Below are positions 11,469-37,528 of a stretch of DNA of 64,000 nt, one piece after another (position 1 is the first letter of the stretch; the number at the start of each line of letters is the position of its first letter). The notes beneath the pieces were generated by a model. It saw only the letters and a list, made by a program, of their open reading frames with translations. It was not told the origin of the DNA and ran no database searches. The translations under genes were made by a program, and so were the position numbers. Origin of the DNA: Halomarina salina (GTDB lineage Archaea; Halobacteriota; Halobacteria; Halobacteriales; Haloarculaceae). The stretch lies in NCBI RefSeq assembly GCF_023074835.1, contig NZ_JALLGW010000003.1:186001-250000 (forward strand), read 5' to 3'.

Positions 11469-11624
11469 CCCGATACGATATTCAGGACTACTGAACGGGA
11501 GTTCCAGCGTAGTGCCGGGGGGCGTGCGTACCGCCATGGAGCGCCCAGACCATCGGGAGCGGCCGTCGTCGGCCCGGTCAGCCGACCGCCAAGGCTTTGA
11601 CGGCCGCGGGTGAATCCGCGGCAG

Positions 11625-13703
11625 ATGGCACTCGAACCGTACGACGACTGCTGGCTCCGGTACGGCGAGGTCGACGGGGCGTCGCTCCCGGAGTCGTATC
11701 GAACCTACTGCGCGAACGTCTACGCGTCCGTCGGAGCGCCCGAACTCGGCGCTGTCCGCGAGGAACTGCGGCGAGGAATCGACGGCCTGCTCGGGCGAGA
11801 ACCCCACCTCTGGCAACATCCGCCCCGGTCGGCCGAGGGCTTCCTCGCGGTCGGGACGCCCGACGAGATGGAGGTCGTCCACGACTCGGTGGCGGTCGAC
11901 GCCGTCGACTCGCTCGCCGACGGCGGGTTCCACCTGCGCACGACGGAGTGGGAGGGCTGCGACGTCCTCGTCCTCACCGCCCCCACCGACCGGGGACTCG
12001 TGTACGGGACGTTCCACCTCCTCCGGCACCTCTCGCTCGGCCGCTCCGTCGACGACCTGGACCTGTTCGAGGAGCCAGCGAACGCCGAGCGTCTCGTCAA
12101 CCACTGGGACAACCCGTTCCGTCGGTCGATGGAGCGAGGGTACGCCGGCCAGTCGCTCTTCGACTTCGAGGCGTTGCCGAACCTCGACGACCGGTACGTC
12201 GACTACGCCCGCCTCCTCGCCTCGGTCGGAATCAACGGCGTCGTCCTCAACAACGTCAACACGGAGATTCCCGACCGCGAGAGCGCGAACCCCGCGATGA
12301 GCGAACTGGCGGGGTGGCGGTTGCTCGAATCGCGGTACCTGGAGGACCTGACCGGCCTCGCCGCCCTGTTCCGCAGGTACGGCATCCGCACCTACCTCTC
12401 GGTGAACTTCGGCGCGCCCGAGAAGGTGGGCGACCTCGAGACGTCAGACCCGACCGACGAGCGAGTCGAACGGTGGTGGGCGGAGAAGGCCGACGAGGTG
12501 TACGACCTGATACCCGACTTCGGCGGTTTCGTCGTCAAGGCCGACTCCGAGGGACAGCCGGGACCGTACAACTACGACGCCGACCACGTGGACGGGGCGA
12601 ACGTCCTCGCGCGAGCGCTCGAACCGCACGGTGGCCGGGTCTGGTGGCGCGCGTTCGTCTACGGCTCGCACAGCGACCGGGCGGTCCAGCAGTACGAGAC
12701 GTTCGAACCGCTCGACGGCGAGTTCCACGACAACGTAACGGTTCAGGTGAAGAACGGTCCCATCGACTTCCAGCCCCGCGAGCCGATATCGCCGGTGTTC
12801 GGGCAGATGCCAGACACCGACCTCGGCCTGGAGCTCCAGATAACCGGCGAGTACACCGGCCAACACGTCCACGCCTGCTACCACGTCCCGATGTGGAAGG
12901 AGGTGCTGGAGTTCGACACCGACCCGGAGGGCCACGGAAAGCGAGTGAAGGAGCTGTTCTCGGACCCCGGAACGGGACTGGCGGGCGTGGGCGGCCCCGG
13001 CGCGGACCCGAACTGGACCGGCCACTACCTCGCGCAGGCGAACCTCTACGGCTACGGCCGTCTCGCCTGGAACCCCGACCTCGACACCGCCACCATCACC
13101 GACGAGTGGGTCCGCCAGACGTTCGGCCACGACCCGGAGGTCGTCGAGACCGTCACCGACGTCATGCACGACAGCTGGCCCGCCGTCGTCGACTACACGA
13201 CCGGCGGCCTCGGCCTCATGCACATGATGTACAACGGCGAGGCCCGCCTGGAGAACCACTACGACCCGAACCCCGAGGAGTGGCCGGGCTACCACGGCGC
13301 GTCCGAGGACGGCATCGGTGTGGACCGCAACGCTCGTGCGAACGGCTTCGCCCAGCAGTACCCCGACGCACTCGCCGACCGGTACGACGACCCCGAGACG
13401 TGCCCCGAGGAGTTGCTGCTGTTCTTCCACCACCTGCCCTGGGACCACGAACTCGACGACGGGCGGACGGTCGTCCAGACGCTGTACGACAACTGCTTCG
13501 CCGGCGTCGAACTGGCCGAGACGTTGCGGGAGCGCTGGCGTTCGCTCGACGGACGGGTCGACGAGAGGCGGTTCCGCCACGTCGCCGAGCGGTTCGACGA
13601 GCAGGTCGTCCAGGCCGAGCGGTGGGCCGAGACGCTGACCGCGTTCTTCTACGACCACTCGGGGGTTCCCGACGAGCTCGGGCGCGTCCCACGCGACGAG
13701 TGA
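11625..13703 (+). CDS. Alpha-glucuronidase, GH67
   Basis: 692 residues, the usual length for GH67, which removes (4-O-methyl)glucuronate from the non-reducing end of xylo-oligosaccharides. The general-acid motif KADSEGQPGP puts Glu309 at the acid position, and the two base carboxylates are Asp381 (PIDFQPREP) and Glu409 (LQITGEY), 28 residues apart as in characterised enzymes. There is no signal peptide, so it acts in the cytoplasm on imported oligosaccharides. The ATG at 11625 is preferred over an in-frame GTG at 11610. It is divergent from the IclR gene and upstream of mannonate dehydratase, which handles a later step of glucuronate breakdown. Confidence 0.95.
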   Translation: MALEPYDDCWLRYGEVDGASLPESYRTYCANVYASVGAPELGAVREELRRGIDGLLGREPHLWQHPPRSAEGFLAVGTPDEMEVVHDSVAVDAVDSLADGGFHLRTTEWEGCDVLVLTAPTDRGLVYGTFHLLRHLSLGRSVDDLDLFEEPANAERLVNHWDNPFRRSMERGYAGQSLFDFEALPNLDDRYVDYARLLASVGINGVVLNNVNTEIPDRESANPAMSELAGWRLLESRYLEDLTGLAALFRRYGIRTYLSVNFGAPEKVGDLETSDPTDERVERWWAEKADEVYDLIPDFGGFVVKADSEGQPGPYNYDADHVDGANVLARALEPHGGRVWWRAFVYGSHSDRAVQQYETFEPLDGEFHDNVTVQVKNGPIDFQPREPISPVFGQMPDTDLGLELQITGEYTGQHVHACYHVPMWKEVLEFDTDPEGHGKRVKELFSDPGTGLAGVGGPGADPNWTGHYLAQANLYGYGRLAWNPDLDTATITDEWVRQTFGHDPEVVETVTDVMHDSWPAVVDYTTGGLGLMHMMYNGEARLENHYDPNPEEWPGYHGASEDGIGVDRNARANGFAQQYPDALADRYDDPETCPEELLLFFHHLPWDHELDDGRTVVQTLYDNCFAGVELAETLRERWRSLDGRVDERRFRHVAERFDEQVVQAERWAETLTAFFYDHSGVPDELGRVPRDE

Positions 13704-13778
13704 GGGGGAGTTCCGGCCGACAGTGGGGCACGCGAGTCGTGTTCGGTGACCGGTCACGTCCGCTCGCCACCGCACAAG

Positions 13779-13787
13779 CTATTTGTC
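13779..13787 (+). promoter_or_regulatory. TATA-like box for mannonate dehydratase
   Basis: CTATTTGTC lies 22-30 nt before the ATG at 13809, the spacing expected for a leaderless haloarchaeal transcript. This supports the internal start codon over the upstream in-frame ATG at 13746. Confidence 0.5.
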
Positions 13788-13808
13788 GGGGTTCTCCGAA
13801 CCGAGGGT

Positions 13809-14762
13809 ATGGACCCAACGTGGATGCTCCCGCCGCGTCCCGACCGTCGATGGACGCTCGCCCGGCAACTCGGTCTCTCGACGGCCGTCGTTCGATTCTG
13901 GGGGAAGACGGAGTGGTGGACGTACGACTCGCTGTTGCGGACCGCCAACCGGTTCGCCGACCACGGCCTCTCGCTCGACGTGGTCGAGGACCGACCGCCG
14001 ATGACGAAGACCGTCCTCGGCGAGGACGGCCGCGACGAGGAGATTGCGACGGTCAAACGCCTCCTCCGGAACATGGGCGAGGTCGGCATCGGCGTCTACT
14101 CGTGGGTGTGGACGGAGAACCCGGTGGGCGTCCTCCGGACATCCGACGCGGTCCCACTACGTGGGGAGTCCCGGACCACGGCCTACGACCACGAGCAGTC
14201 GGAACGCGCCCCAGACCACCCGGTGGACATCACGGAGGCCGAACTGTGGGAGAACCTGGAGTACTTCCTCGACGAGGTGGTCCCGGTCGCGGAGGAGGCG
14301 GGGGTCGACCTCGCGCTCCACCCCGACGACCCGCCGGTGTCGCCCGTCCGTGGCGTGCCCCGGCTCGTCACCTCGGTCGAGAACGTCCAGCGCATCCTCG
14401 ACCTTCACGACAGCCCGAACCACGGTCTCACGTTCTGTCAGGGGAACTTCTCGGCGATGGGTACCGACGTCCCGGAGACCATCCGCCGGTTCGGCGACCG
14501 CATCCACTTCGTCCACTTCCGGGACGTCGAGGGGACGCCCGAGCAGTTCGTCGAGACGTGGCACGAGGAGGGTCAGACCGACATGCTCGCGGCGATGCGG
14601 GCGTACCGGGAGGTGGGGTTCGACGGGCCGATACGCCCCGACCACGTCCCGCGGATGCTCGACGACGAGGACCGCGAGGGCGCGATGTCGGGGTACACCG
14701 ACACGGGACGGCTGTTCGCCATCGGCTACATGAAAGGGCTGCTGGAGCAGACAGCTCCGTAG
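13809..14762 (+). CDS. uxuA: Mannonate dehydratase
   Basis: 317 residues of the UxuA TIM-barrel family (EC 4.2.1.8), which dehydrates D-mannonate to 2-keto-3-deoxygluconate. Family features seen include the start WMLPPRPDRRW, ALHPDDPP near 180, LTFCQGNFSAMG near 212 (the metal-binding Cys region), IHFVHFRDV near 236 and IRPDHVPRM near 280. It is somewhat shorter than the roughly 390-residue E. coli enzyme, as in many archaeal and Firmicute forms. With uronate isomerase at 40.9 kb it forms the glucuronate branch; fructuronate reductase would be needed between them. Confidence 0.93.
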   Translation: MDPTWMLPPRPDRRWTLARQLGLSTAVVRFWGKTEWWTYDSLLRTANRFADHGLSLDVVEDRPPMTKTVLGEDGRDEEIATVKRLLRNMGEVGIGVYSWVWTENPVGVLRTSDAVPLRGESRTTAYDHEQSERAPDHPVDITEAELWENLEYFLDEVVPVAEEAGVDLALHPDDPPVSPVRGVPRLVTSVENVQRILDLHDSPNHGLTFCQGNFSAMGTDVPETIRRFGDRIHFVHFRDVEGTPEQFVETWHEEGQTDMLAAMRAYREVGFDGPIRPDHVPRMLDDEDREGAMSGYTDTGRLFAIGYMKGLLEQTAP

Positions 14763-16320: not shown

Positions 16321-17295
16321 CTACGTCGAGAGCGCCTCTCTGACCGCGCGGTAGGCGGGTTTCGGACGATTGCGCTCGTCGAACAGTAGCGGGTCGCCGG
16401 TGTAGCGCTCGGAGAAGTCCCTGAAGCTCCGAATCCACGAGCGCGCGTCGTCGACGCCCCACGTCACGAGTGTATCGACGCCCGTGTCGAGACACGCGTC
16501 GAGGACGTCTCCGTAGAACTCGGCCTGCCGTTCGAGGGCGTCGTCGGGTTCCTCGCCGGCGGGGAAGGCGACGTCCATCTCGGTCACCTGCACGTCGAGG
16601 CCGAGGGCCTGGAACCGTCGGACGTTCTCGGCGACGGAGTCGGGGTCGGGCCACTCCCCCAGCGCGTGCAACTGGAGCCCCACGCCGTCGAGGGGGACGC
16701 CCCGGTCGAGGAGTCGTTCGACGAGGTCGTAGACGGCGTCGGACTTCTCGTTGACCGCGTCCGCGCCGTAGTCGTTGTAGTAGAGGTCGGCGTCGGGGTT
16801 CACCTCGTTCGCCCACTCGAACGCCCGGTCGAGGTACTGTTCGCCCATCGCGTCGTACCAGACCGTCTCGCGCATCGTCCCGTCGTCGGCGACGGCCTCG
16901 TTGACGACGTCCCACGTCCCGACGCTCCGCCGGTACCGGCCGACGACCGTCTGGACGTGCTCGCGCAGGAACCGTCGGAGCTGGTCGTCGGTGTAATCCC
17001 ACGGCTGGAACCACTCGGGCGTCTGGTTGTGCCAGACGAGCGTGTGACCGCGGACGGTCATGTCGTTGGCCCGCGCGAAGTTCACGAGAGCGTCCGCGTC
17101 GGTGAAGTCGTAGGTGTTCAGTGAGGGTCGGAGCGGCCCCATCTTCAGCGCGTTCTCGGGGGTGAGCGCGTTGAACTCGGTTCGTACGGTGTCCCGGTAG
17201 CTCACGTCGTCGCGAAGCGCTGCCGCGTCGACGGCCGTTCCGAGGTCGAACGCGCGACCGTCGGCTACCTCGCGGAGTGAATCCTGGTTCGACAT
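16321..17295 (-). CDS. Endo-1,4-beta-xylanase, GH10 (cytoplasmic)
   Basis: 324 residues forming a bare GH10 (beta/alpha)8 catalytic domain. Glu133 in TWDVVNEA is the acid/base and Glu239 in VQVTEMDV the nucleophile; LTPENALKMG and RGHTLVWHNQTPEW are the substrate-binding motifs. No signal peptide, Tat motif or carbohydrate-binding module is present, so it should cleave xylo-oligosaccharides inside the cell, like IXT6-type intracellular xylanases. It is convergent with the MATE gene and divergent from the exported GH10-like gene. Confidence 0.95.
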   Translation of the reverse strand: MSNQDSLREVADGRAFDLGTAVDAAALRDDVSYRDTVRTEFNALTPENALKMGPLRPSLNTYDFTDADALVNFARANDMTVRGHTLVWHNQTPEWFQPWDYTDDQLRRFLREHVQTVVGRYRRSVGTWDVVNEAVADDGTMRETVWYDAMGEQYLDRAFEWANEVNPDADLYYNDYGADAVNEKSDAVYDLVERLLDRGVPLDGVGLQLHALGEWPDPDSVAENVRRFQALGLDVQVTEMDVAFPAGEEPDDALERQAEFYGDVLDACLDTGVDTLVTWGVDDARSWIRSFRDFSERYTGDPLLFDERNRPKPAYRAVREALST

Positions 17296-17536: not shown

Positions 17537-19726
17537 ATGTCCGAGAAGCCCACCAGTCGACAGTACAGACGCCGGACCTACCTGCAGACCCTCGCGGCGC
17601 TGGGCGTCGGGGCGGCCGGGACGTCGGCCGTCGCGACCGCACAGTCCTCGTCCGACGACGCCTCCGGCGACGCCTACCACCGGACGCTCCGGAGCGACCT
17701 GACCGGCCGCGGCGGGAACAAGACGCTCCCGCCGGGGCAGTACGTCTACGGGGAGACCGAGGCGGCGACGATGGACGCCTTCTCCGTCGTCGGCGACGCG
17801 ACGGCCACGACCACGGCCGTCGAGGACGACGCGGTCCCCATCACGACGGCGACCCGAATCGAGGTCGAGGACGCCCACGGCAGGCCGGGGGCCGTCTCGT
17901 ACCGGGGTCCCGTCGAGGACCACTCGTTCAGCGCCGGGGACGTCCTCCTCGGCGTCGCCTACCTGCGGAGCGACAGCCGGAAGGCGCAGGTAGAGGCGAG
18001 GTTCGGTTACGACACCTCGACCCAAGAGGAGGACGGCGGGTCGGCGAAGGACCACGACGGCGGGTCGCCTGACAACGCCGTCCAGCGCTCCGCGCTCGTC
18101 GAACCGGGCGACACGTGGATGCGCTACTTCTTCCCCATAGAGGTCGGCGAGGCCCCCGGCTCGGACGCGACGCCTGTCTTCGAGTTCCTGCTCGGTTCCT
18201 GCGAGCAGACCGTCGAGGTCGCTGGCGTCGCGCTCATCGACTACAGCGACGCCGAGACGGTCCCCACGCTCGGGACGCTTCCGCCCTACGACTACGAGGG
18301 ACGCGCGGAGGACGCCGAGTGGCGCGAAGCGGCCGAGGAGCGCATCGACGAGATCCGGAAGACGGACGTCGAGGTGACCGTCGTCGACAGTGATGGCGAG
18401 CCGGTTCCCCACGCATACGTCGACGTCGCCATGACCGAACACGCCTTCGACTTCGGGAGTGCGGTCGCCGTCCCGCGCGTCACCGGCGACAGCGAGGACG
18501 ACGAGACGTACCGCGAGGTGTTCCTGGAGGAGTTCAACAAGGCCGTCGTCGAGAACGGGATGAAGTGGCCCGCCTGGGAGGGCGTCTGGGACATCTCGAA
18601 CGAGGCGACCCGCGAGACGCTCGGCTGGCTCGACGACCACGACGTCCCGACGCGGGGCCACTACCTCCTCTGGGAGGAGTACGGCACCGACGGCGGTGGT
18701 GGGATGAACGTCGACTCGGGCCTCCCGGCCGACGAGGTCCGACAGACCATCACGGAGAAGATAGCGAACCACGGCGAACGGTTCGACGGACAGGTGACCG
18801 AGTGGGACATGCACAACCACCCCATCTGGCAGTCCGCCTTCCGCGACGACGAGGCGCTCGGCTGGGACGCCGTCGCCGAGTGGTGGGCGGCGGCCGACGA
18901 CGCCACCGACGCCGAACTGTACACCAACGAGATGGGGGCCATCGGCGGGACCTGGCAGCAGGACCCGTACTACCAGTTCGTCCAGCGACTGGTCGAGGAG
19001 GACTACCCGATCGACGGTATCGGGTTCATGGGCCATCACCAGCAGCAGTGGGGCCAGCTGCTCGACGTGGACGAGTTACTGGCGGGACTCGACCGGTTCG
19101 GTGCGTTCGACCTCCCGTTGCTCGTCACCGAGTTCGACATCGAGATCATCAGTCGCCGGAACGCACAGGACGTCGACGTCCAGCGCGACTACACTCGGGA
19201 CTTCCTGACGGCCGTGTTCAGCCACGAGGCCGTCGAGGGCGTCCTCTCGTGGGGGTTCTGGGCGGGCGACCACTGGCGACCGACCGGGGCGTACTACGAC
19301 GAGGACTGGACGCTCCGACCGAACGGGGAGCAGTACCTCGACCTGGTGTTCGACGAGTGGTGGACCGAGGAGGTCGGCCGGACCGGACGAGACGGGACGT
19401 TCTCGACGCGCGGCTTCGAGGGCGACTACCACCTCGTCGCCAGCGACGGCCACCGCGTCGGGCACGCCGAGGCCACCTTCGACGACGAGAACGGGACCGT
19501 CGAGGTCGAACTCCGCCCGCTCTCCGAGGTGGCGACCGACGTGGACGGCGACGGCCGCACGGAGGACGTCGACGGCGACGGCGACGTCGACAACAGGGAC
19601 GCCGGACTGTTCTTCAAGAACCTCCGCTCGGACGACGTGCAGGAGCACCCGGAGCAGTTCGACTTCGACGGCGACGGCGACCTCGACTTCCGGGACGTGG
19701 TCGCACTGTTCCGGGAGGCGAACTGA
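17537..19726 (+). CDS. Tat-exported GH10-like protein with C-terminal dockerin-type EF hands
   Basis: 729 residues. A twin-arginine signal (YRRRTYLQTLAALGVG) ends near 36. Residues about 45-280 look like a carbohydrate-binding beta domain, then a short beta module (VEVTVVDSDGEPVPHAYVDV) precedes the GH10 barrel (about 300-610), and two dockerin/EF-hand-like repeats (VDGDGDVDNRDAGLF and FDGDGDLDFRDVVALF) end the protein. The nucleophile Glu532 is present (LLVTEFDI), but the acid/base position in WDMHNHPIW is His428 instead of the Glu of the WDVxNE motif, so classical retaining hydrolysis may be lost or changed. Likely role: extracellular xylan binding or cleavage. It diverges from the cytoplasmic xylanase gene. 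Confidence 0.88.
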   Translation: MSEKPTSRQYRRRTYLQTLAALGVGAAGTSAVATAQSSSDDASGDAYHRTLRSDLTGRGGNKTLPPGQYVYGETEAATMDAFSVVGDATATTTAVEDDAVPITTATRIEVEDAHGRPGAVSYRGPVEDHSFSAGDVLLGVAYLRSDSRKAQVEARFGYDTSTQEEDGGSAKDHDGGSPDNAVQRSALVEPGDTWMRYFFPIEVGEAPGSDATPVFEFLLGSCEQTVEVAGVALIDYSDAETVPTLGTLPPYDYEGRAEDAEWREAAEERIDEIRKTDVEVTVVDSDGEPVPHAYVDVAMTEHAFDFGSAVAVPRVTGDSEDDETYREVFLEEFNKAVVENGMKWPAWEGVWDISNEATRETLGWLDDHDVPTRGHYLLWEEYGTDGGGGMNVDSGLPADEVRQTITEKIANHGERFDGQVTEWDMHNHPIWQSAFRDDEALGWDAVAEWWAAADDATDAELYTNEMGAIGGTWQQDPYYQFVQRLVEEDYPIDGIGFMGHHQQQWGQLLDVDELLAGLDRFGAFDLPLLVTEFDIEIISRRNAQDVDVQRDYTRDFLTAVFSHEAVEGVLSWGFWAGDHWRPTGAYYDEDWTLRPNGEQYLDLVFDEWWTEEVGRTGRDGTFSTRGFEGDYHLVASDGHRVGHAEATFDDENGTVEVELRPLSEVATDVDGDGRTEDVDGDGDVDNRDAGLFFKNLRSDDVQEHPEQFDFDGDGDLDFRDVVALFREAN

Positions 19727-20644: not shown

Positions 20645-20762
20645 ATGACGAATCATCTGGATAGCCGGGCATATAGTTTTGGTATGGACCTCTCGGGTGT
20701 GAAACGGGGGATTCACCCGCTCTTCCCCCACGATTTATCGCCGACCCACGATGAACCGTACC

Positions 20763-22289
20763 ATGGAGTACCGCAATCCGGTGGTCCCTGGCTGCCACCC
20801 GGACCCGACCGTCTGCCGGGTCGGTTCGACGTTCTACCTCGCGACGAGTTCCTTCGAGTACTTCCCGGGCGTCCCGCTCTACCGGAGCGATGACCTCGTC
20901 TCCTGGGACCGAATCGGTCACTGTCTGACCCGCGACGAACAGCTCGACCTCACCGACACTGCCGCTTCGGACGGCGTCTACGCGCCGACGCTCCGCCACC
21001 ACGACGGGACGTTCTTCCTCGTCACGACCGACGTCTCGGGGACGGGGAACTTCCTCGTCACCGCCGACGACCCGGCGGGCGAGTGGTCGGACCCGATTTC
21101 GCTAGACGCGCCGGGGTTCGACCCGGACCTGTTCGTCGACGGCGAGACGGCCTACCTCACGTACGCCCACGGGTCGACGCTCCCCGAGACGACGATTCGG
21201 CAGGCAGAGGTGGACCTCGATACCGGCGCTGTCGGCGAGGAGCGAGAACTGTGGCAGGGTATCGAGGGGACGTTCAGCGAGGCACCACACCTCTACGAAC
21301 GCGACGGTACCTACTACCTGCTCACCGCCGAGGGCGGGACCCACACGAACCACATGGTCGTCGCGGCCCGCAGCGACCACCCGACCGGTCCGTTCGAGGG
21401 CTGTCCCGACAACCCGGTGCTCTCCCATCGCGGCCACCCGATGGCGGACGTCAAGGCGACCGGCCACGGGGACCTGGTCCGAGCGCCCGACGGGTCGTGG
21501 TGGCTGGTGTTCCTCGGCGTCCGCCAGCACGGCGGCCACCCCGGCTGGCACCACCTCGGTCGCGAGACGTTCCTCGCCCCCGTCGAGTGGGAGGACGGCT
21601 GGCCGGTCGTCGACGGCGGTGACCCGGTGACCACGACGATGCAGGTCGAGTCGCTCCCCGGCGACGGGTCGCCCCCGGACGCGCCTGCCCCGGCGCGACC
21701 GACCCGGACGACGTTCGACGGCGACTCGCTCGACGGCGCGTTCGAGTACCGACGGAACCCGGACCGGTCGGCGTACTCGCTGGATGACGGGGACGGCCTG
21801 ACGCTCCGTGGGCGGACCGAGCGACTCGGCCAGCACGGGGCGACGTTCGTCGGTCGGCGACAGGCCCACTTCGACTGCCGGACGTACGTGGACCTCGCGT
21901 TCGACCCCGAACCGGGCGAGGAGGCGGGTCTCGCGGCCGTGATGGACGAGCGCCACCGCTACGAGGTCGGGGTCACACGGAGCGACGGGACGACGAGCGT
22001 CGTCGTCCGCCGCAGAATCGGGAACGCCGCGGAGGTGGTCGCGGAGTCGCCCGTCAGCGGCGACGGCGACACCTGGCGACTCGCGGTCGACGCGACGACG
22101 GACAGCTACCGGTTCCTGTCCGGTGCCGACGACCCGACCGAACTGGCGACGCTCGCGACGCGGTATTTAGCGACGGAGGTGAGCGGAAGTTTCACCGGCG
22201 TCTACCTCGGGATGTACGCGACAAGCGGCGATGACGACCCGACGCCCGCCCGGTTCGAGCGGTTCGTCTACGAACCGACGGGCGAGTGA
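20763..22289 (+). CDS. Beta-xylosidase/arabinofuranosidase-type enzyme, GH43
   Basis: 508 residues: an N-terminal five-bladed propeller (GH43, about 1-300) and a C-terminal beta-sandwich (about 310-508) as in GH43 xylosidases. The catalytic triad is Asp14 (GCHPDP, base), Asp120 (GFDPDLF) and Glu173 (FSEAPHL, acid). No signal peptide is present, so it removes xylose from imported xylo-oligosaccharides in the cytoplasm. ATG 20763 was preferred to 20751 because it is about 28 nt from TTTAT at 20734-20738 and homologues begin YxNPVxPGxxPDP. The divergent xacE-like gene suggests shared control. Confidence 0.92.
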   Translation: MEYRNPVVPGCHPDPTVCRVGSTFYLATSSFEYFPGVPLYRSDDLVSWDRIGHCLTRDEQLDLTDTAASDGVYAPTLRHHDGTFFLVTTDVSGTGNFLVTADDPAGEWSDPISLDAPGFDPDLFVDGETAYLTYAHGSTLPETTIRQAEVDLDTGAVGEERELWQGIEGTFSEAPHLYERDGTYYLLTAEGGTHTNHMVVAARSDHPTGPFEGCPDNPVLSHRGHPMADVKATGHGDLVRAPDGSWWLVFLGVRQHGGHPGWHHLGRETFLAPVEWEDGWPVVDGGDPVTTTMQVESLPGDGSPPDAPAPARPTRTTFDGDSLDGAFEYRRNPDRSAYSLDDGDGLTLRGRTERLGQHGATFVGRRQAHFDCRTYVDLAFDPEPGEEAGLAAVMDERHRYEVGVTRSDGTTSVVVRRRIGNAAEVVAESPVSGDGDTWRLAVDATTDSYRFLSGADDPTELATLATRYLATEVSGSFTGVYLGMYATSGDDDPTPARFERFVYEPTGE

Positions 22290-26584: not shown

Positions 26585-26806
26585 GTCGTACGGTCGGCAG
26601 ACCGAGGCGAAAAGTGTAGTGGAAGTCGACCCGCCGACGCGTCCGGCCCCGCGTTCTGGTTCTCCTCCCCGCTAGCCCGTCGCTAGACGCGTGGTCGGTA
26701 CCCACTGTCGAGCGGTGTCTGGGGCACGCTCACGTATGTTTCATAGACGTACATCGAATTATAATCCACAATGTTTATGCCGAAACTCACACACCCTTAC
26801 AATGTT

Positions 26807-28615
26807 ATGGCAAGCGACAGCGGTCGGTCCGACTACGAGAGTGTTATCAGCCGCCGGAAGATGCTGGCGGTGGCCGGCGCGTCCGGCATGGCTGCCCTCG
26901 CGGGGTGTAGTGGTGGTGACCCGGAGTCCGACGGCAACGGTAGCGGCGACGGGAACGGCGGTGGCGGTGGTGGCGGTAACAACAGCAGCAACGGCGGCGG
27001 TAACCAGGTCTACGACGCGACCTACGTCAACGCGTACACCGGTAATCCGGTCGACCTCCACTTCAACAGCCAGGCGACCCAGAACTTCAGCTGGCCCGCG
27101 GGACGGGCCGTCTTCGCCCCCTTCCTGAAGTACTCGTTCAACAAGAGCACGTTCCTCCTCGGCGCCCTCAGCGACCTCCAGATCCAGGACCAGGAGGTCA
27201 CGCTCACGTTCCGCGAGGACCTGTCGTGGGACAACGGCGACGACTGGACCACCGAGGACTTCGACGTGCAGATGCAGCTCGCGAAGAAGACCGGGATGAC
27301 CATCTGGGGCTATCTCGACGGGTACGAGATCGACGACGAGCGCACCGCTACCCTCCAGCTCTCCGGGCCGACGAACCCCCAGATCATCAAGTTCGAGCTG
27401 ACGAACTTCTTCGTGGACGTGAAGAAGGAGGTCCACGGGGAGTTCGTCGACCAGGACGCGGCGGAGTTCCTCCAGTGGTCCTACGAGGAGCCGGTCGCGA
27501 GCGGGCCGTTCTCGTTCGTCACCAAGGACCAGCAGGCGTTCGAGTTCGAGCGCAACGAGAACTTCTACGACGCCGACAACGTCAACTTCGGGACGTACCT
27601 CATCGAGAGCTACGGTGGGAACACCGCCCAGCACCAGGCGCTGATGGGCAACCAGGTCGACGCGGCGACCAGCCTGTTCACGCCGCCGGAGATCAAGAAC
27701 CAGTTCCCCGACCACGTCGTCGAGGTGAACGTCCCCGCGAAGTGGGGGTACGGTATCGTCTTCAACCACGACGACCCCGTGTTCGGTCAGCGGGCGGTCC
27801 GCCAGGCGGTCGCTCACGTCATCAACCGGCAGGCCATCGTCGACAACGCGGGTCCCGAGTCGAAGTTCGTCGCTCCGTCGCCCTGTGGCATCGCGCCTCG
27901 CGACCAGGAGTACTGGCTCGGTGACTGGTTCGGCGACTTCGAGACCTACGGTCCGGAGTCGAGCCAGACCGACAAGGCGACGCAGCTCCTCGAGGACGCC
28001 GGCTTCTCCAAGCAGGGCGGGACCTGGACCGACGGCGACGGCAACAAGGCCAGCGGGCAGTACTACACGCCGGCGGGCTGGACCGACTGGACGACGATGA
28101 CCCAGACGGTCGTCAGCCAGCTCAACGACTTCGGGTTCGACTTCTCCATCAGCTCCAAGCCGACCAACGACTGGTTCAACCAGTACTCCAACAGCAACTT
28201 CAAGATGGGTGCGCTGTACTGGCTGCCGGGCGGGTCGCGCTCGGCGTTCCCGTACTTCCCGCTGTACTACCAGCTCTGGGAGTCCGAGATCGGCGGCGGG
28301 CACAACTACCGCGAGATCGCCCAGTCCGAACAGACGATTCCCGCCCGCGGCGGCGGCGAGATGACGCTCACTCCGCTGGACACGGTCAAAGAGATCGCAC
28401 GCCAGCCGTCCGACGAGGAGTCGCGGCCGTTCGTCCAGGAGGCGGCGTGGCACAACCACATCGACCTGCCGTTCCTCGGCCTCGTCTCGAAGTTCGAACA
28501 GTCGTGGACGACGAACGACGAGTGGACGGTCGCACCCGAGGGGAGCGAGAACCGGCGCGTCAAGTGGCCGCAGTTCTGGTGGCCGCAGACGGGCGACCTG
28601 CAGTACAAGGGATAG
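26807..28615 (+). CDS. ABC transporter substrate-binding lipoprotein (peptide/oligosaccharide family)
   Basis: 602 residues. SRRKMLAVAGASGMAALAGC is a Tat signal with lipobox, followed by a Gly/Asn/Ser-rich linker typical of haloarchaeal binding proteins. The body matches the family 5 solute-binding fold (LSWDNGDDWTTEDFDVQMQLAKK and VRQAVAHVINRQAIV). In archaea and Thermotoga this class often binds cello-, xylo- or manno-oligosaccharides rather than peptides, and the surrounding GH genes favour xylo-oligosaccharides (inference). The ATG at 26807 is chosen over 26771 and 26777 because it begins the Tat signal, and AATTATAAT at about 26757 would start transcription 20-25 nt upstream of it. Confidence 0.92.
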   Translation: MASDSGRSDYESVISRRKMLAVAGASGMAALAGCSGGDPESDGNGSGDGNGGGGGGGNNSSNGGGNQVYDATYVNAYTGNPVDLHFNSQATQNFSWPAGRAVFAPFLKYSFNKSTFLLGALSDLQIQDQEVTLTFREDLSWDNGDDWTTEDFDVQMQLAKKTGMTIWGYLDGYEIDDERTATLQLSGPTNPQIIKFELTNFFVDVKKEVHGEFVDQDAAEFLQWSYEEPVASGPFSFVTKDQQAFEFERNENFYDADNVNFGTYLIESYGGNTAQHQALMGNQVDAATSLFTPPEIKNQFPDHVVEVNVPAKWGYGIVFNHDDPVFGQRAVRQAVAHVINRQAIVDNAGPESKFVAPSPCGIAPRDQEYWLGDWFGDFETYGPESSQTDKATQLLEDAGFSKQGGTWTDGDGNKASGQYYTPAGWTDWTTMTQTVVSQLNDFGFDFSISSKPTNDWFNQYSNSNFKMGALYWLPGGSRSAFPYFPLYYQLWESEIGGGHNYREIAQSEQTIPARGGGEMTLTPLDTVKEIARQPSDEESRPFVQEAAWHNHIDLPFLGLVSKFEQSWTTNDEWTVAPEGSENRRVKWPQFWWPQTGDLQYKG

Positions 28616-28657
28616 CCTCTCGATACGTTTAACTGACCCACTCCTGTTCAATCTCTC

Positions 28658-29656
28658 ATGAACTACTACCTCAGACGGACGGCTAGGATTCCGCTCACCG
28701 TGTTAGCGGTCGCCACGCTCACGTTCGGACTGATTCGCCTGCTTCCGGGGGGACCGTTCACGCAGTTGCGTCTCGAACTGCTCCGCCAGGGTGTGCCCGT
28801 CGAACAGGTCGACGCGCGCATCGAGGCGCTCCAGAACATCCGGCCCGACGCGCCGCTGTGGCAGCAGTACCTCGACTACCTCGCCGGGGTCGCGCGACTG
28901 GACCTCGGGGAGTCCATCTCGCTCGGCGTCCCCGTCATGGACGTCATCGCCAGGGCGCTCCCCTGGACGGTGTTACTCGTCGTCGTCTCGACGGTGTTGA
29001 TGTTCGTCTTCGGCGTCCTGATCGGTGCGATACAGGCCTACTGGGAGGGCTCCCGGTTCGACAAGGCGCTCTCGGGCGGGTCCATCTTCGTGATGGCCGT
29101 GCCGTACTACATCTTCGCGGTCATCTTCGTCTACCTGCTGGCCTACCAGTGGGGGTGGTTCCCGACCGGGAACGCGCACGCACGCGGCGTCACCCCAGGC
29201 TTCAACCTCGACTTCCTGGTGAGCGTCGCGAAGCACGCGGTGCTCCCGATCCTCGCGTTCACCATCGGCGGTATCGGGTCGACGGCGCTCAGCATGCGCT
29301 CGAACAGCGTCCAGGTGCTCGGCGAGGAGTTCGTCGAGGTCGCACGGCTCCGCGGCCTCGGTGACGGACGCATCGCAACCCGCTACGTCGCCCAGAACGC
29401 CATCCTGCCGATGTACACGGGCCTGCTCCTGTTGATCGGGTTCCGGCTCGGGGGCACGGTCGTCCTCGAGGAGATCTTCTCGTACCCCGGGCTCGGCTAC
29501 TACCTCATCTCGGCGGTCAACGCGAACGACTACCCGCTGATGATGGGCTGTTTCCTCGTCATCACGGTGACGCTGGTCGTCGGGGTGTACATCGCCGACC
29601 TGACGTACGGTCTCATCGACCCACGCATCAGCACGGGGGACGCCGATGGCTACTGA
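28658..29656 (+). CDS. ABC transporter permease (DppB/OppB type)
   Basis: 332 residues with about six membrane helices. The N-terminus FGLIRLLPGGPF is the usual DppB pattern, and the EAA loop (EFVEVARLRGLGDGRIATRYVAQNAILP) that docks on the ATPase is near 225-250. It follows the binding protein by 42 nt and overlaps the next permease gene by 11 nt, as in a single operon. Confidence 0.95.
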   Translation: MNYYLRRTARIPLTVLAVATLTFGLIRLLPGGPFTQLRLELLRQGVPVEQVDARIEALQNIRPDAPLWQQYLDYLAGVARLDLGESISLGVPVMDVIARALPWTVLLVVVSTVLMFVFGVLIGAIQAYWEGSRFDKALSGGSIFVMAVPYYIFAVIFVYLLAYQWGWFPTGNAHARGVTPGFNLDFLVSVAKHAVLPILAFTIGGIGSTALSMRSNSVQVLGEEFVEVARLRGLGDGRIATRYVAQNAILPMYTGLLLLIGFRLGGTVVLEEIFSYPGLGYYLISAVNANDYPLMMGCFLVITVTLVVGVYIADLTYGLIDPRISTGDADGY

Positions 29657-30668
29657 GACCGACTCCCAGTCCTCCGAGGAGATCGACTGGCGCTCGGAGT
29701 CGTCGTCGGTCGAGATGAGCCGCGGCGACCGGCTCCGGGAGTTCTACCGGAGCTGGGTCTACGAACCGGCCGTCATCGCGTGGTCCGACTGGCGGACGCG
29801 CATCGGCCTGTTCATCCTGGGCGTCTACCTCCTCATGGCCGTCGTGGAGGTCGCCGGACTCTGGCGGAATCCGAGTCCCAACCAGGCCCAGGCGTGGCTC
29901 CAGCCGTTCGAGAACTGGGCGTACCCGCTCGGGACGACCCGGTCGGGCGTGGACCTGCTGGCGCTCATCATCGAGTCCACGCCGTTCATCCTGTTGATGG
30001 TCCTCGCGGGCGGCGTCTGGGCGACGTTCCTCGCGGTCGTCGTCGGGACCGTCTCGGGGTACAAGGGCGGACGGGTCGACAACGTCATCATGTCCATCTC
30101 GGACTTCTTCATGGCGATCCCCGGCCTCCCGCTCGTCATCATCCTGGCCATCGCGCTGAGTCCGGAGAACCCTATCCTGCTCGGGGTCGTCCTGACCATC
30201 AACTACTGGGCGGGGCTGGGCCGTTCGATACGGGCACAGGTCCTCTCGATCCGGGAGGCGAGCTACGTCGAGGCGGCCCGGACGATGGGGACGAGCACGC
30301 CGCGCATCATCGTCAAGGACGTGCTCCCGAACATCATGCCGTACGTGATGGTGAACTTCGTGTTCGCGGCACGCTACACGGTGTTCGCGTCCGTCGGGCT
30401 CTACCTCATCGGTGTGCTGCCCTACACCGGACAGAACTGGGGCGTGACGCTGAGCAACGCGTACTACCAGGGTGCGCTGTTCAGCACGTCGGCGCTCCAC
30501 TGGCTGCTGGTCCCGATAATCGCCATCGTCGGGCTGGCCTTCGGGCTCATCCTGGTGAGCCAGGGGATGGACCGGCTGTTCAACCCGAGAGTCCGGACCC
30601 GGCTCCGCGGCGAGTCCGAGTCCGTCGAGGAAGAAGAGAGCAGTTCGACGAACACGGGGATGTTCTAG
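29646..30668 (+). CDS. ABC transporter permease (DppC/OppC type)
   Basis: 340 residues. After a hydrophilic N-terminus of about 50 residues come six membrane segments, with the EAA loop REASYVEAARTMGTSTPRIIVKDVLPNI near 200-225. It partners the DppB-type protein to form the pore. It overlaps the previous gene by 11 nt, and the next start codon begins on the base after its stop, so expression is coupled. Confidence 0.95.
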   Translation: MATETDSQSSEEIDWRSESSSVEMSRGDRLREFYRSWVYEPAVIAWSDWRTRIGLFILGVYLLMAVVEVAGLWRNPSPNQAQAWLQPFENWAYPLGTTRSGVDLLALIIESTPFILLMVLAGGVWATFLAVVVGTVSGYKGGRVDNVIMSISDFFMAIPGLPLVIILAIALSPENPILLGVVLTINYWAGLGRSIRAQVLSIREASYVEAARTMGTSTPRIIVKDVLPNIMPYVMVNFVFAARYTVFASVGLYLIGVLPYTGQNWGVTLSNAYYQGALFSTSALHWLLVPIIAIVGLAFGLILVSQGMDRLFNPRVRTRLRGESESVEEEESSSTNTGMF

Positions 30669-32885
30669 ATGTCATCAAACAGTTCACTCGGCGGTCAGAC
30701 CGAATCGAGGGGGGTCAGCGACCCCATCCTGGAGATTAGCGACACGAACGTGACCTACAGCGGGGGTGAGACGCACGTCCTCGAGGACGTCAACGTCGAC
30801 ATCGAGCGCCGCGAGGTGCTCGGCATCGTCGGCGAGAGCGGCAGCGGGAAGTCGATGTTCGCCTCGGCGCTGCTGGACGCAGTTCCCGACCCCGGCAGAC
30901 TCACGGGGAGCATCCGCTACAACCGCGAGGACGGGTCGTCGGTCGACGTCCTGGAGTTGAGCGACGAGGAGCTCCGCAAGTTCCGCTGGGAGGAGGTGTC
31001 GATGGTGTTCCAGGGGGCGATGAGCTCGTTCAACCCGACGATGAAGGTCGAGACGCACTTCACGGAGACGCTGAAGACCCACGACAAGAACGTCTCCGAG
31101 GGCATGGAGTTCGCCCGCGAACTCCTCCGCGACCTCTATCTCGAACCCGAGCGGGTGCTCGACTCCTACCCCCACGAGCTCTCGGGTGGGATGCAGCAGC
31201 GCGCGCTCATCGCACTGAGCATGGTGCTGAACCCGGAGGTGCTGGTGATGGACGAGCCGACGGCCGCGCTCGACCTGCTGATGCAGCGCTCCATCCTCCG
31301 ACTGCTCGACACCCTGCAGTCGGAGTACGACCTGACCATCATCTTCATCACCCACGACCTACCGCTGGTGGCGTCGCTGGCCGACCGCATGGCCATCATC
31401 TACGCGTTCCAGTTCGCCGAGATCGGTCCGCGCGACGAGATAATCGGGAACTCCGCGCACCCGTACACGCGGAAGCTGCTGAACGCGACGCCGAACCTCG
31501 ACGCGCCGCTGGAGGAGATGAAACCCATCGAGGGCGAGGGACCGGCCCCGGTGAACCTCCCGTCGGGCTGTCGGTTCCACCCGCGCTGTCCGCTCGCGAC
31601 GGAGAAGTGCATCGTCGACGACCCGCCGCTCGCGGCCGTCGACGACAGCACGCACCGCAGCGCGTGTCACTACAAGGAGGAGGCCCGCGAGGAGATACCG
31701 CTCAACTTCGGCGAGACGGCAACCGAGGTCGAGCGGGTCGAGCGGACCGGCGAGCAGCGGACCCAGCAGAACGGTGGGGTCCGGACCACTGCCCCCGGTG
31801 AACAGCCGCTCCTCGCGCTCGACGACGTCGAGGTCCACTTCGAGAAGGAACAGGGACTGCTCGATCGGTTCGGCGGCGACCCCGACGTGGTCCGGGCCGT
31901 CGACGGCGTCTCGCTCGACATCGAGGAGCAGGACCTCGTCTGCCTCCTCGGCGAGTCGGGCTGTGGCAAGACGACGCTCGGCAAGACGATGATCGGACTC
32001 CAGAAGCCGACCGGCGGCACCATCGAGTACCAGGGACAGGACATCTGGGAGGCCGGTCGGAACACCGAGATAACGAAGGAGGAGATCCGCTCGGCGCTCC
32101 AGATCATCCACCAGGACCCGGGGAGCGCGCTCAACCCCAACCGGCGTATCGTCAACATCCTCTCCGAGCCGCTGCGCCACACCCACCCGAACATCGGCGT
32201 CAACGAGCGGCGGAGCCGTATCCACTCGCTGCTCGAACGCGTCGGGATGACGCCGGCGGACGACTTCATGAGCCGGTACCCACACCAGCTCTCGGGCGGC
32301 GAGAAACAGCGCGTCGTCCTCGCACGAGCGCTGTTGATGAACCCCAACGCCATCCTCGCCGACGAGGCCATCAGCGCGGTGGACGTCTCGCTGCGCATCG
32401 AGATCATGGACCTGATGCTGGAGCTACAGGAGGAGTTCGACACCTCGTTCCTGTTCATCAGCCACGACCTCTCGAACGCGCGGTACTTCGCCGAACACGG
32501 TGACGGTCGCATCGCCGTGATGTACCTCGGAGAGATCGTCGAGATCGGGACGGCAGAGCGTCTCATCCACGACCCGCGCCACCCCTACACCGAGGTGCTC
32601 CGCTGGGCGACGCCGAACCTCGACCTCGAAGCGATGGAGGCCGACGACCCGCCCATCCGGGAGGTCGACGTGCCGGACCCGGTCAACCCGCCCTCCGGCT
32701 GCCGGTTCCACACTCGCTGTCCGGTCGCCCGCGAGGCCTGCCGGGAGGAACACCCCGAGTTGCAGGCGGTCGACGGTGGCGACGGGAGCGCCGCCTGCTT
32801 CCGCGAGGACCCGAACCACGAGTACTGGGACAGCGAACCGCTCCCCGGGGCGGTCGAGGAGCGGGACGGACTCGCGGAGAACTGA
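30669..32885 (+). CDS. Fused two-domain ABC ATPase (OppD-OppF fusion)
   Basis: 738 residues with two complete ATPase domains. Domain 1: Walker A GESGSGKS 55-62, signature LSGGMQQR from 171, Walker B VLVMDEP with Asp195/Glu196. Domain 2: Walker A GESGCGKT 428-435, LSGGEKQR from 541, Walker B AILADEA with Asp565/Glu566. Each ends in the oligopeptide-type extension with paired Cys (GCRFHPRCPLATEKC and GCRFHTRCPVAREAC), which in relatives can hold an Fe-S cluster. The usual separate D and F subunits are here one chain, so stoichiometry is fixed. In domain 2 the common DEPTSALD reads DEAISAVD. It is the last gene of the import operon. Confidence 0.95.
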   Translation: MSSNSSLGGQTESRGVSDPILEISDTNVTYSGGETHVLEDVNVDIERREVLGIVGESGSGKSMFASALLDAVPDPGRLTGSIRYNREDGSSVDVLELSDEELRKFRWEEVSMVFQGAMSSFNPTMKVETHFTETLKTHDKNVSEGMEFARELLRDLYLEPERVLDSYPHELSGGMQQRALIALSMVLNPEVLVMDEPTAALDLLMQRSILRLLDTLQSEYDLTIIFITHDLPLVASLADRMAIIYAFQFAEIGPRDEIIGNSAHPYTRKLLNATPNLDAPLEEMKPIEGEGPAPVNLPSGCRFHPRCPLATEKCIVDDPPLAAVDDSTHRSACHYKEEAREEIPLNFGETATEVERVERTGEQRTQQNGGVRTTAPGEQPLLALDDVEVHFEKEQGLLDRFGGDPDVVRAVDGVSLDIEEQDLVCLLGESGCGKTTLGKTMIGLQKPTGGTIEYQGQDIWEAGRNTEITKEEIRSALQIIHQDPGSALNPNRRIVNILSEPLRHTHPNIGVNERRSRIHSLLERVGMTPADDFMSRYPHQLSGGEKQRVVLARALLMNPNAILADEAISAVDVSLRIEIMDLMLELQEEFDTSFLFISHDLSNARYFAEHGDGRIAVMYLGEIVEIGTAERLIHDPRHPYTEVLRWATPNLDLEAMEADDPPIREVDVPDPVNPPSGCRFHTRCPVAREACREEHPELQAVDGGDGSAACFREDPNHEYWDSEPLPGAVEERDGLAEN

Positions 32886-34004: not shown

Positions 34005-36212
34005 ATGACACACGAGGACGGGTCGGTCCCCGAGGCGTCGGCCTCGACCATCGACGACCTGCTACAGGAGATGACGCTCGAAGAGAAGGCGGGACAGCTC
34101 GTCGGGAGTTTCGTCGGGAAACTCGGCGAGGCCGAACGCTCGCCCGAAGACGTCGAGCGAGAGATCGTCGACTCCGGCGTCGGTGCCGTCTCACCGTTCG
34201 GTATCGGCATCTCGACGCGCGACGACCCCGAACTGGCGGTGGAGACGGCGAACCGACTCCAGCGGGTCGCCGTCGAGGAGACCAGGCTCGGCATCCCGCT
34301 GCTCGTCCCCGTCGACGCCGTCCACGGCCACGCGTACATCAACGGCGCCACGGTGTTCCCCCACAGCATCGGCATGGCGGCGACGCGTGACCCTGACCTC
34401 GTCGAACGCGCCGGAACGGCCACGTCGCGGGAACTGACGGCGACGGGCGCGACGCTGAACTACGGGCCGACCTGCGACGTCGCCCGCGACCAGCGCTGGG
34501 GGCGCGTCTTCGAGACGTACGGCGAGAGCGCGTACCTCTGTGGCGAACTCGCGGCGGCCGAGATTCGAGGGCTCCACGCACCGGACGACCCGATGGGGGT
34601 CACGGCGAAGCACTTCCCGGCGTACGGCCAGCCAGCGCGCGGCGAGGACGCCTCGGCCGTCGACGTCTCGGAGTCGTCGCTCCGGCGGGACTTCCTCCCG
34701 CCGTTCGAGCGCGTCCTCGACGCCGCGGACGTGGTGATGCCCTGTTACAACTCCATCGACGGCGAACCGGGGCACTCCTCCGAGCGCTTCCTGACGGACC
34801 TGCTGCGCGGCGAGTTCGGCTTCGACGGCGTCGTCACGTCCGACTGGGGCGGTGTCGACCACCTCTACCAGTACCACCGCACGGCCGACTCGCGGTCGAC
34901 CGCCGCACGGCAGGCGTTCGAAGCGGGCCTCGACCTGGTCTCCGTCGGCGGTCCCGACTACGCCGAGACGCTCTGCGAACTCGTCAGGAACGAGGAGCTC
35001 TCCGAGCGCCGGCTCACCGAGAGCGCCCGGGCGGTCCTCGAACTGAAGGCCTCGCTCGGCCTGTTCGAGGACCCGTACGTCGACCCGGAGCGCGTCGGCG
35101 AGGACGTCGGCTGCGCGGCCCACCGCGACCTGTCGCTGGACGCCGCCCGCGACTCGATGACGCTGCTGGAGAACGACGGCACGCTCCCGTTCGACGAGTC
35201 GGTCGACGACGTGCTCGTCACCGGACCGAACGCCGACGACCTGCACCACCAGTTCGGCGGGTGGAGCGTGATGGACGAGTCGAACCTGGAGGGCGTGACG
35301 GTCCGAGAGGGCATCGAGGCCGTCGTCGGCGAGGAACGCGTGACCTACGAACAGGGCGCGAGCATCACCGAACGACTCGACGTGGAGGCGGCGGCCGACG
35401 CCGCCAGCGACGCCGACGCCGCCGTCGTCGTCCTCGGCGAGGACTGGTACCTCCACGAGTTCGGCCCCCGCGAGGTGAGCCAGCCGACCGGCGAGTTCCC
35501 GACCCGGACGCAACTGGAACTGCCTCCTGCCCAGCGCGACCTGCTGGAGGCGGTGACGGAGACGGGGACGCCGACGGCGCTCGTGGTGATAGCGGGCCGT
35601 CCGCTGTCGATTCCGTGGGCAGCAGAGCACGTCCCCGGAGTCCTGTTCGCGTACTATCCCGGCATGGACGGCGGGACGGCCGTCGCGGAGACGCTGTTCG
35701 GCCGGAACGACCCGAGCGGCCGGTTACCCATCTCGGTCCCCCGCTCGACCGGTCACCTGCCGACGCGGTTCGACCACCTGCGCCACCCGACGCCCATCGG
35801 CGACGCCGAGCACCCGCCCTCGTACGACCCGCTGTACGCGTTCGGCCACGGCCTGACCTACACCGACTTCGAGGTGCGTGACCTGCGCCTGTCGTCGGCG
35901 ACGGTCGGCACGGCCGGGACGGTCACCGCGTCGGTGACCGTCGAGAACCTCGGCGAGCGCTCGAGCGCACGCGCGGTCGACCTGTTCGTCGAGGACGTCG
36001 TCAGTTCGCGGGTGACGCCCGTCCGCGAGCACGTCGGCTGTGCGAAGGCACGGCTCGACCCCGGCGAGGAGACGACGCTCTCGATGGACGTCGCGGTCGA
36101 GGACCTCGCGGTCCACGGGCGGGACTACGAGCGGGTCGAACCGGGGGCGTTCGTCTTCGAGTGCGCCGACGAGCGGGTGGAGCTGACCGTGGAATCGCGC
36201 TCGTCGATGTAG
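34005..36212 (+). CDS. Beta-glucosidase/beta-xylosidase, GH3
   Basis: 735 residues with the three GH3 parts: TIM barrel (about 15-330), alpha/beta sandwich (about 370-590) and a fibronectin-III-like C-terminal domain (about 620-735). The nucleophile is Asp280 in VVTSDWGG; KHFPAYG and the early EEKAGQLVG segment are family motifs. There is no signal peptide, so it acts in the cytoplasm on short oligosaccharides. The sugar specificity cannot be read from the sequence; xylo- or gluco-oligosaccharides are the obvious choices here. It is convergent with the xacA-like gene. Confidence 0.93.
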   Translation: MTHEDGSVPEASASTIDDLLQEMTLEEKAGQLVGSFVGKLGEAERSPEDVEREIVDSGVGAVSPFGIGISTRDDPELAVETANRLQRVAVEETRLGIPLLVPVDAVHGHAYINGATVFPHSIGMAATRDPDLVERAGTATSRELTATGATLNYGPTCDVARDQRWGRVFETYGESAYLCGELAAAEIRGLHAPDDPMGVTAKHFPAYGQPARGEDASAVDVSESSLRRDFLPPFERVLDAADVVMPCYNSIDGEPGHSSERFLTDLLRGEFGFDGVVTSDWGGVDHLYQYHRTADSRSTAARQAFEAGLDLVSVGGPDYAETLCELVRNEELSERRLTESARAVLELKASLGLFEDPYVDPERVGEDVGCAAHRDLSLDAARDSMTLLENDGTLPFDESVDDVLVTGPNADDLHHQFGGWSVMDESNLEGVTVREGIEAVVGEERVTYEQGASITERLDVEAAADAASDADAAVVVLGEDWYLHEFGPREVSQPTGEFPTRTQLELPPAQRDLLEAVTETGTPTALVVIAGRPLSIPWAAEHVPGVLFAYYPGMDGGTAVAETLFGRNDPSGRLPISVPRSTGHLPTRFDHLRHPTPIGDAEHPPSYDPLYAFGHGLTYTDFEVRDLRLSSATVGTAGTVTASVTVENLGERSSARAVDLFVEDVVSSRVTPVREHVGCAKARLDPGEETTLSMDVAVEDLAVHGRDYERVEPGAFVFECADERVELTVESRSSM

Positions 36213-36291
36213 TCGCGGGACCGGGGACCGTCGGTATTCCTGTGCGAAGAAATGCGCGAGCACTGCGAGGAGGTTCGCCGCCGTACTGCCG

Positions 36292-37383
36292 TCAGTTCCG
36301 GTTCGACCCGACCACGACGCGCTCGCCGGTGTCGGCCGCCTCGTAGACGGCGGCGATGGCTCGCAGGTCGGCCAGTCCGTGTTCGCCGTCCGGGTGGGGT
36401 GACGCCCCGGAGAGCAGGCAGTCCGCGAAGTAGTCGAACTCCTCGGTCATCTGATTCACCGGCGGCACCTGTACCTCGACGCGCTGTTCGCCACTGCGGA
36501 CGGTCATGAACCTCGTCTGGTCGGGGTAGAAGACGGGCTCGAGCAGGATTTCGCCCTCGGTGCCGACGACGCGGAAGCTGCTGGCGCGCTGGGCGTTCTG
36601 ACTCGCGGTACAGCTCACTTCCGTCCCGTCGTCGAAGGTGGCCTCGAAACTGGCGTGTTCGTCGGGGACGTCGGCGAACGCCTCGTGTTCGGCGGTGAAC
36701 TGCGCGCCGACCGACACCGGGTCGGCGTCGAGGACGAACCGCGCGGTGTTGAGCGGGTAGATGCCGAGGTCCATCACGGTCGCGCCGTAGCCGGTGAGGT
36801 CGGGGTCCAGCCGCCACTGGTCGGGGTCCGGGATGACCTCCATGAGTCGCTGGGACATGTGGCCGTGGACCTGCACCGGGTCGCCGATTTCGCCGTCGCG
36901 GACGAGTTCCCGCGCCCGCCGGACCGCCGGGTCGGTCTGCATCCGGTAGGCGACCATCAGCGGGACGTCTCCCGACTCGGCCGCCGCGACGACCCGTTCG
37001 GCGCGCTCGACGCTCGCCTCGATGGGTTTCTCGCAGAGCACGGCCTTCCCGTACTCCGCGGCGGCCTCGACGTACGGCAGGTGGAGGGCGTTCGGCGTGA
37101 CGACGTAGACGGCGTCGTAGGCGTCTCTGGCCTCGCCGTCGAGGAACTCGTCGTAGGTGAGCGCGTCGGTGACGGTGTCGGTGTCCGCGGCGACGCGGTC
37201 TGCCTTCTCGTGTGACCCGCTGACGACGACGGTCGTCTCGCAGAACGTCGACGACTCGATGGCGGGCATGGCCTCCTCTCGCGTCCACCAGCCGAGGCCG
37301 ACCAGTGCGAAGCGGACGGTCCCGTCCTCCGAGCGCTGCCAGTCCCGCCGGTCGAACCCGTCGACCCCTTGCTCGAACATCAT
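36292..37383 (-). CDS. xacA: D-xylose 1-dehydrogenase (NADP+), Gfo/Idh/MocA family
   Basis: 363 residues. [25 protein letters not shown] at the start (positions 9-33), [35 protein letters not shown] and LLEPVFYP closely follow the haloarchaeal xylose dehydrogenases characterised in Haloarcula marismortui and H. volcanii (from memory). These oxidise D-xylose to xylonolactone, the first step of the oxidative pathway. The start (37383, or 37380 one codon later) follows a minus-strand CCTATTTGTA at 37406-37415, 23-32 nt upstream. xacD- and xacF-like genes lie 7-10 kb away. Confidence 0.92.
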
Positions 37384-37405
37384 ACTCGCTCCTGTGTCCG
37401 TCGCG

Positions 37406-37415
37406 TACAAATAGG
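37406..37415 (-). promoter_or_regulatory. TATA-like box of the xacA-like gene
   Basis: On the minus strand CCTATTTGTA lies 23-32 nt before the start codon, consistent with a leaderless message. No clear dyad is seen beside it. Confidence 0.5.
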
Positions 37416-37528
37416 CTCGTACTCCGGTCGATTCTCGCGATGGGTGACCGTCGTCGAGCGCGCGGCCTGTAGCCTACCGCTGCCGTATCACCAAGAGCCA
37501 AGTACTGCTGGCCACCCAGTGTCGACCG

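Follow-up and report, generated by a model that had tools for sequence, protein, structure and literature searches.

Background

Textbooks give the acid/base Glu as an invariant of GH10, and most GH10 enzymes are endo-acting. The protein described here, P0001, has its nearest solved structure in the GH10 enzyme XynA (PDB 7d88, 7d89, and 9rhv), with which it shares the fold and 29% identity. Both proteins have the nucleophile Glu, the conserved residues (Lys, His, Trp, and Asn) around subsite -1, and the flanking strands, whereas P0001 differs in having His428 for Glu182, Met for the Gln on β6, and NE for ND on β5.

Histidine has been described in the acid/base role in other families, namely in the His302/Asp320 dyad of GH117, in NagZ, and in a dyad proposed for GH156 (PMC11574756), and in the GH3 enzyme Nag3, which acts as a phosphorylase (PMC8950772). 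The likeness of the GH3 enzymes NagZ and Nag3 to P0001 is that of retaining TIM-barrel glycosidases with His for the acid/base Glu or Asp (PMC8950772, PMC11574756); however, the His of NagZ has an Asp as its dyad partner, while the partner in P0001 is a candidate from sequence and no sequence relation is shown. GH117 and GH156 offer the likeness of a His-carboxylate dyad as general acid (PMC11574756), but both are inverting, exo-acting, and unrelated families. The precedent His-acid enzymes are exo-acting (PMC11574756). Another comparison is provided by the GH18 chitinase-like lectins, in which a GH fold and sugar binding are kept and chitinase activity is absent (PMC3662789); unlike these, P0001 keeps the nucleophile and neighbouring site residues and has one replacement fixed. 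A search confined to the open-access literature found no account of a His acid/base in GH10. Proteins with this His are labelled endo-1,4-β-xylanase in databases, and under such plain labels the swap has been overlooked.

Sequence sources and analysis

The window is the whole 64,000-nucleotide stretch of DNA that was analysed, which comes from a halophilic archaeon. Homologues were collected from GTDB contigs together with 59 related genomes, from 391 haloarchaeal genomes (a class-wide sample), and from plasmid records, as well as from a sample of 395 genomes in the phylum to which a Saprospiraceae relative belongs and from a class-level search of 245 genomes. Homologues with His at the acid/base position are referred to as His-type and those with Glu as Glu-type. 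The catalytic pair of XynA was taken from PDB 7d89, which is the E182A/E280A mutant. The features of the locus are listed in Table 1.

Table 1. Coordinates (positions in the window) of P0001, its domains and site residues, and the genes of the surrounding cluster
Feature	Coordinates	Strand	Remarks
P0001 ORF	17537-19726	+	729 aa
Tat (twin-arginine) signal peptide	17537..17644	+	RRRTYLQ motif, residues 1 to ~36
N-terminal β-sandwich	17669..18286	+	residues 45-250, CBM4/CBM22-like fold (AlphaFold2 and Foldseek)
GH10-like catalytic barrel	18305..19441	+	residues 257-635; flanking Ig-like and C-terminal strands
Asp424, candidate dyad partner	18806..18808	+	four residues before His428, invariant in 25 His-types
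His428, GH10 acid/base Glu position	18818..18820	+	codon CAC, aligns with 7d88 E182
Glu465 (β5), candidate dyad partner	18929..18931	+	NE for usual ND, invariant in 25 His-types
Met498 (β6), in place of Gln of GxQxH	19028..19030	+	co-varies with His428
Glu532, retained catalytic nucleophile position (β7)	19130..19132	+	aligns with 7d88 E280
Dockerin type I	19562..19708	+	PF00404, residues 676-724, two EF-hand-like loops
GH67 α-glucuronidase	11610..13703	+	PF07488, E=5e-125
UxuA mannonate dehydratase	13746..14762	+	PF03786, E=1.9e-76
Ordinary GH10 xylanase, divergent neighbour	16321..17295	-	PF00331, E=3.8e-101; WDVVNEAV; no signal peptide (cytosolic)
GH43, β-xylosidase-type	20751..22289	+	PF04616 and PF17851
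ABC importer (SBP family 5, two permeases, fused ATPase)	26771..32885	+	PF00496, PF00528 twice, PF00005

Protein architecture and the Glu-to-His swap

The GH10 profile (PF00331) matched residues 300-583 of P0001 with 109 bits, well above the cut-off of 22.1 (E=3.5e-31), and HMMER aligned P0001 with 7d88 across residues 257-635 (E=3.5e-43). In the AlphaFold2 model, pLDDT was mostly above 90 in the barrel and the sandwich, and low in the signal and dockerin; for the sandwich at residues 45-250 a value of 88 was obtained. Foldseek comparison of this model ranked GH10 xylanases first, with a TM score of 0.87 on target for 7d88, and the (β/α)8 barrel of the family is present. No Pfam family matched the N-terminal sandwich (residues 45-250); when it was submitted to Foldseek alone, the CBM4-2 of the Rhodothermus xylanase, CBM4, and CBM22 were among the best matches (E ~4e-7 to 3e-6). 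The dockerin match was marginal (23.1 bits, cut-off 22.9) and covers two Ca-loop repeats, DVDGDGDVDNRD and DFDGDGDLDFRD. Most His-type homologues begin with a Tat motif, and a dockerin is found only in a few of them (the window, L006, L013, L057, and L058).

HMMER pairs WDVNNEMM of XynA with WDMHNHPI of P0001, and VTEYD with VTEFD; the two Glu residues of the aligned XynA chain are 98 residues apart, which is the spacing of E182 and E280. From the alignment and this spacing, His428 stands in the place of the acid/base Glu on β4 (WDxxNE) and Glu532 is left as the nucleophile Glu on β7. P0001 is therefore most suitably classed as a His-type GH10 variant, since it belongs to the family by sequence and fold and lacks its acid/base feature. 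Chance or misalignment was ruled out, as the nearby His426 varies (H, Q, or I in relatives) and His428 is fixed, and sequencing error was ruled out by the identical His in 25 of 25 distinct homologues. These results bear out the original prediction in its descriptive part, which had put a Tat signal and two terminal dockerin/EF-hand repeats on the protein, read WDMHNHP as placing His428 at the site of the catalytic Glu with Glu532 kept, and noted a separate complete GH10 alongside (Table 1); the alignment with GH10 structures and haloarchaeal members that it proposed as a check found the His at the acid/base position and conserved throughout the His-type group.

Distribution and phylogeny of the His-type proteins

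The His-type set consists of 24 haloarchaeal homologues and one bacterial homologue, L094, which is termed Rhodothermus-like only by its sequence company and class. The motif is mostly WDMHNHP, with WDVHNHP, WDCQNHP, and WDMQNHP also occurring; the divergent forms are WDVINHP in P0002, from a Halocatena marina plasmid, and WDAINHI in L094. All Glu-type relatives aligned have Glu at this position. When the trait columns were left out of the tree, all 25 His-types lay on one side of a branch with a support of 79 (99 for the haloarchaeal core) and one change of state, Glu to His, suffices, so that the single branch is consistent with one such change. In an earlier tree, from which P0002 was absent, L094 stayed loose and two changes were required (AU p=0.49 for a single clade), and it was the addition of P0002 that brought the His-types onto one branch. 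The placement of the bacterial member is therefore the weak point of this topology.

Two interrupted genes were seen in the genomes surveyed. The His-type copy of L131/L052 (G290:C1:2555032-2556195) is broken by an in-frame TGA, and near L127 the gene for a Glu-type, cytosolic-like GH10 is split in two and contains a TGA (G342:C1:1481018-1481638), with the nearby His-type intact.

Conserved residues and proposed mechanism

Of 384 aligned columns, 42 (11%) are invariant in the His-types, and these include H375, W379, D424, N427, N464, E465, H500, E532, W572, and W580. K343 is kept in 96% of aligned sequences, and P0002 has diverged in that loop. Position 498 is M in 96% of His-types (all but one) and Q in 97% of Glu-types; other type-specific positions are Ala585 (Pro in Glu-types) and Arg594 (Lys in Glu-types). 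Pro429 was rejected as a His-type signature because NEP occurs in Glu-types. Judged from these alignments, the invariant site residues are what would be expected of a working site; a binder could keep part of them.

The preferred reading, which argues by analogy and is given a probability of about 0.5, is that P0001 is an exported, active retaining glycosidase of GH10 descent in which His428 would serve as acid/base with Asp424 or Glu465. Once exported, the enzyme would attack extracellular glucuronoxylan or a related polymer of xylose. Glu532 would act as the nucleophile and form the glycosyl-enzyme, and His428 would protonate the leaving group and then deprotonate water or another acceptor. 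A carboxylate near His428, either Asp424 or Glu465 by analogy with the His-carboxylate dyads of GH3 NagZ and GH117, may tune its pKa, and the Gln-to-Met change on β6 may be an adjustment of the pocket that came with the swap. Products would then be taken up by the ABC importer and dismantled by the GH67, GH43, and UxuA pathway. In favour of an active enzyme are counted the invariance of His428 over a wide identity range, the co-varying Met498, the single branch, the invariant site residues, the precedents for a His acid/base, and, as described below, the genomic contexts of the His-types and the xylanase complements of the window's genome and G082; against it is counted that precedent His-acid enzymes are exo-acting and GH10 mostly endo. 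Of the three options raised by the original prediction (a glycosidase using another acid, an inactive binder, or a scaffold partner), the first is thus the best supported, with the refinement that His428 itself is likely the acid/base.

It is very improbable that His428 is a spectator in a hydrolase with another proton donor, whether Asp424, Glu465, or Glu380. The first two are invariant in His-types, but Glu-type GH10 likewise has D or E at each of these positions, and neither was newly gained. Glu465 was rejected as a newly gained acid since β5 NE also occurs in the Glu-types L061, L064, L093, and L096 and is thus not specific to His-types (Glu-types have D or E at 465). Glu380 varies among E, G, M, and S, and His428 is fixed rather than free.

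Gene cluster and xylanase complement

The cluster in the window comprises genes for IclR, GH67, UxuA, MATE, the cytosolic GH10, P0001, an FAA hydrolase, GH43, the SBP5 ABC importer, and GH3, and is a glucuronoxylan pathway, with the importer probably serving in oligosaccharide uptake. Also inside the cluster are an FG-GAP-like protein (22311 to ~23900, minus strand) and a Tat-type DUF7405 protein (PF24152; 23945-25285, minus strand); in L006 and L132, too, the His-type gene has a DUF7405 gene beside it. Two ORFs of the window had no Pfam match, at 36125-37795 (minus strand, 556 aa) and 40708-42414 (plus strand, 568 aa).

The genome of the window carries only two GH10, P0001 and its signal-less neighbour, and a profile search of it for GH11, GH30 (PF02055), GH5, and GH8 gave no match. 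P0001 is therefore the only exported xylanase candidate among the families tested (GH10, GH11, GH30, GH5, and GH8). In G082 the His-type is likewise the only GH10, and GH11 is absent. Several other His-type genomes also carry an exported Glu-type GH10 or a GH11, and in those the His-type may do something else.

This last observation is one of several that suit a dead or nearly dead xylan binder, in which the GH10 fold, the CBM-like domain, and the dockerin would capture surface substrate for cytosolic or other enzymes. The acid/base Glu is lost, an additional CBM4/22-like domain is present, and chi-lectins provide examples of GH folds turned lectins (PMC3662789); a binder could also keep its sugar-binding residues, and the nucleophile Glu touches the sugar too. 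Nevertheless, the nucleophile and the -1 subsite residues are invariant across a divergent clade, a single specific residue was fixed rather than scattered substitutions accumulated, the L005 and L007 forms are without the N-terminal sandwich (L005 has only the Tat signal and the GH10 domain), within the tested families the genome of the window encodes no exported xylanase besides P0001, and the His-type swaps syntenically with an exported Glu-type GH10 (see below). The inactive-binder option of the original prediction is weakened by these points and is considered somewhat unlikely. The scaffold-partner option was dropped: no cohesin (PF00963) was found in the genome of the window (G000) at E 0.01, which makes a cellulosome role unlikely, and most His-type relatives are without a dockerin.

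Genomic context in other genomes

GH67, GH4, UxaC, UxuA, or GH11 genes were found within ~9.8 kb of the His-type gene at 13 of the 19 other haloarchaeal His-type loci, and the same markers lie near Glu-type GH10 genes at 9 of 20 loci, so this kind of neighbourhood is common to both types. In L162 the order MATE-GH4-SDR-UxaC-UxuA is followed by a Tat-exported Glu-type GH10 (L084) and then an ABC importer; L126-L128 have the same arrangement with a His-type in the GH10 slot, and the two types seem interchangeable there. A minority of His-types are in other contexts. A divergent His-type on the Halocatena marina plasmid, with the conserved Lys loop altered, lies among sulfatases and GH78 (L171, 5938-7260), and its substrate is possibly a sulfated polysaccharide; that of L143 adjoins a sulfatase and that of L138 a GH5. 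The His-type of L137 (8740-10983) lies between GH97 and arabinofuranosidase-type genes on one side and GH127 on the other, with an FGGY sugar kinase near, and likely has an arabinose-containing substrate. The bacterial His-type of L145 (9328-10710) adjoins a gene for a bacterial sugar transferase, and the locus resembles one for exopolysaccharide. From contexts such as those with sulfatase, GH78, GH97, GH127, and GH5, the His-type group probably acts on several substrates.

These neighbourhoods also bear on an active enzyme of changed chemistry. With His, the negative charge at the acid/base position would be removed, and the glycosyl-enzyme could then be attacked by a sugar or by an anion such as phosphate, as in a transglycosidase or phosphorylase, or the site could fit a charged uronate- or sulfate-bearing glycan. 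In GH3, phosphorylase activity accompanies the use of His in place of Glu/Asp (PMC8950772), and the occurrence of His-types near UxaC, UxuA, GH4, and GH67, and of distant His-types near sulfatases, GH78, GH127/GH97/arabinofuranosidase-type genes, and an exopolysaccharide-type sugar transferase, fits this reading. However, Glu-type GH10 occurs in similar glucuronate loci, no phosphate site was identified in P0001, and the cluster gives no sign of sugar-phosphate uptake, which makes phosphorolysis poorly placed for a Tat-exported protein. The extracellular place makes phosphorolysis less likely and remains compatible with transfer; as a whole, a changed chemistry is deemed fairly unlikely for P0001.

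Returning to acid/base catalysis by His428, the His-type proteins may more generally constitute a natural subfamily of GH10 (clan GH-A) that uses His and a carboxylate as acid/base, arose once, occurs in haloarchaea and in one bacterial lineage or more, and has come to act on several different polysaccharides, perhaps by transglycosylation or phosphorolysis instead of simple hydrolysis; this broader proposal is tentative, its chances being put slightly below even. The fixed swap, apparently of single origin, and the matched Glu-type relatives in the same slot together make a natural experiment on a change of proton donor in a retaining glycosidase. If P0001 is active, His acid/base catalysis would be extended to clan GH-A, and the protein would offer a tool enzyme that tolerates salt and might catalyse transfer or phosphorolysis. 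If it is inactive, the xylanase potential of haloarchaea is overstated by annotation.

Among the remaining loci, an intein-bearing DNA polymerase B gene adjoins the His-type gene in L001 (1640-5866).
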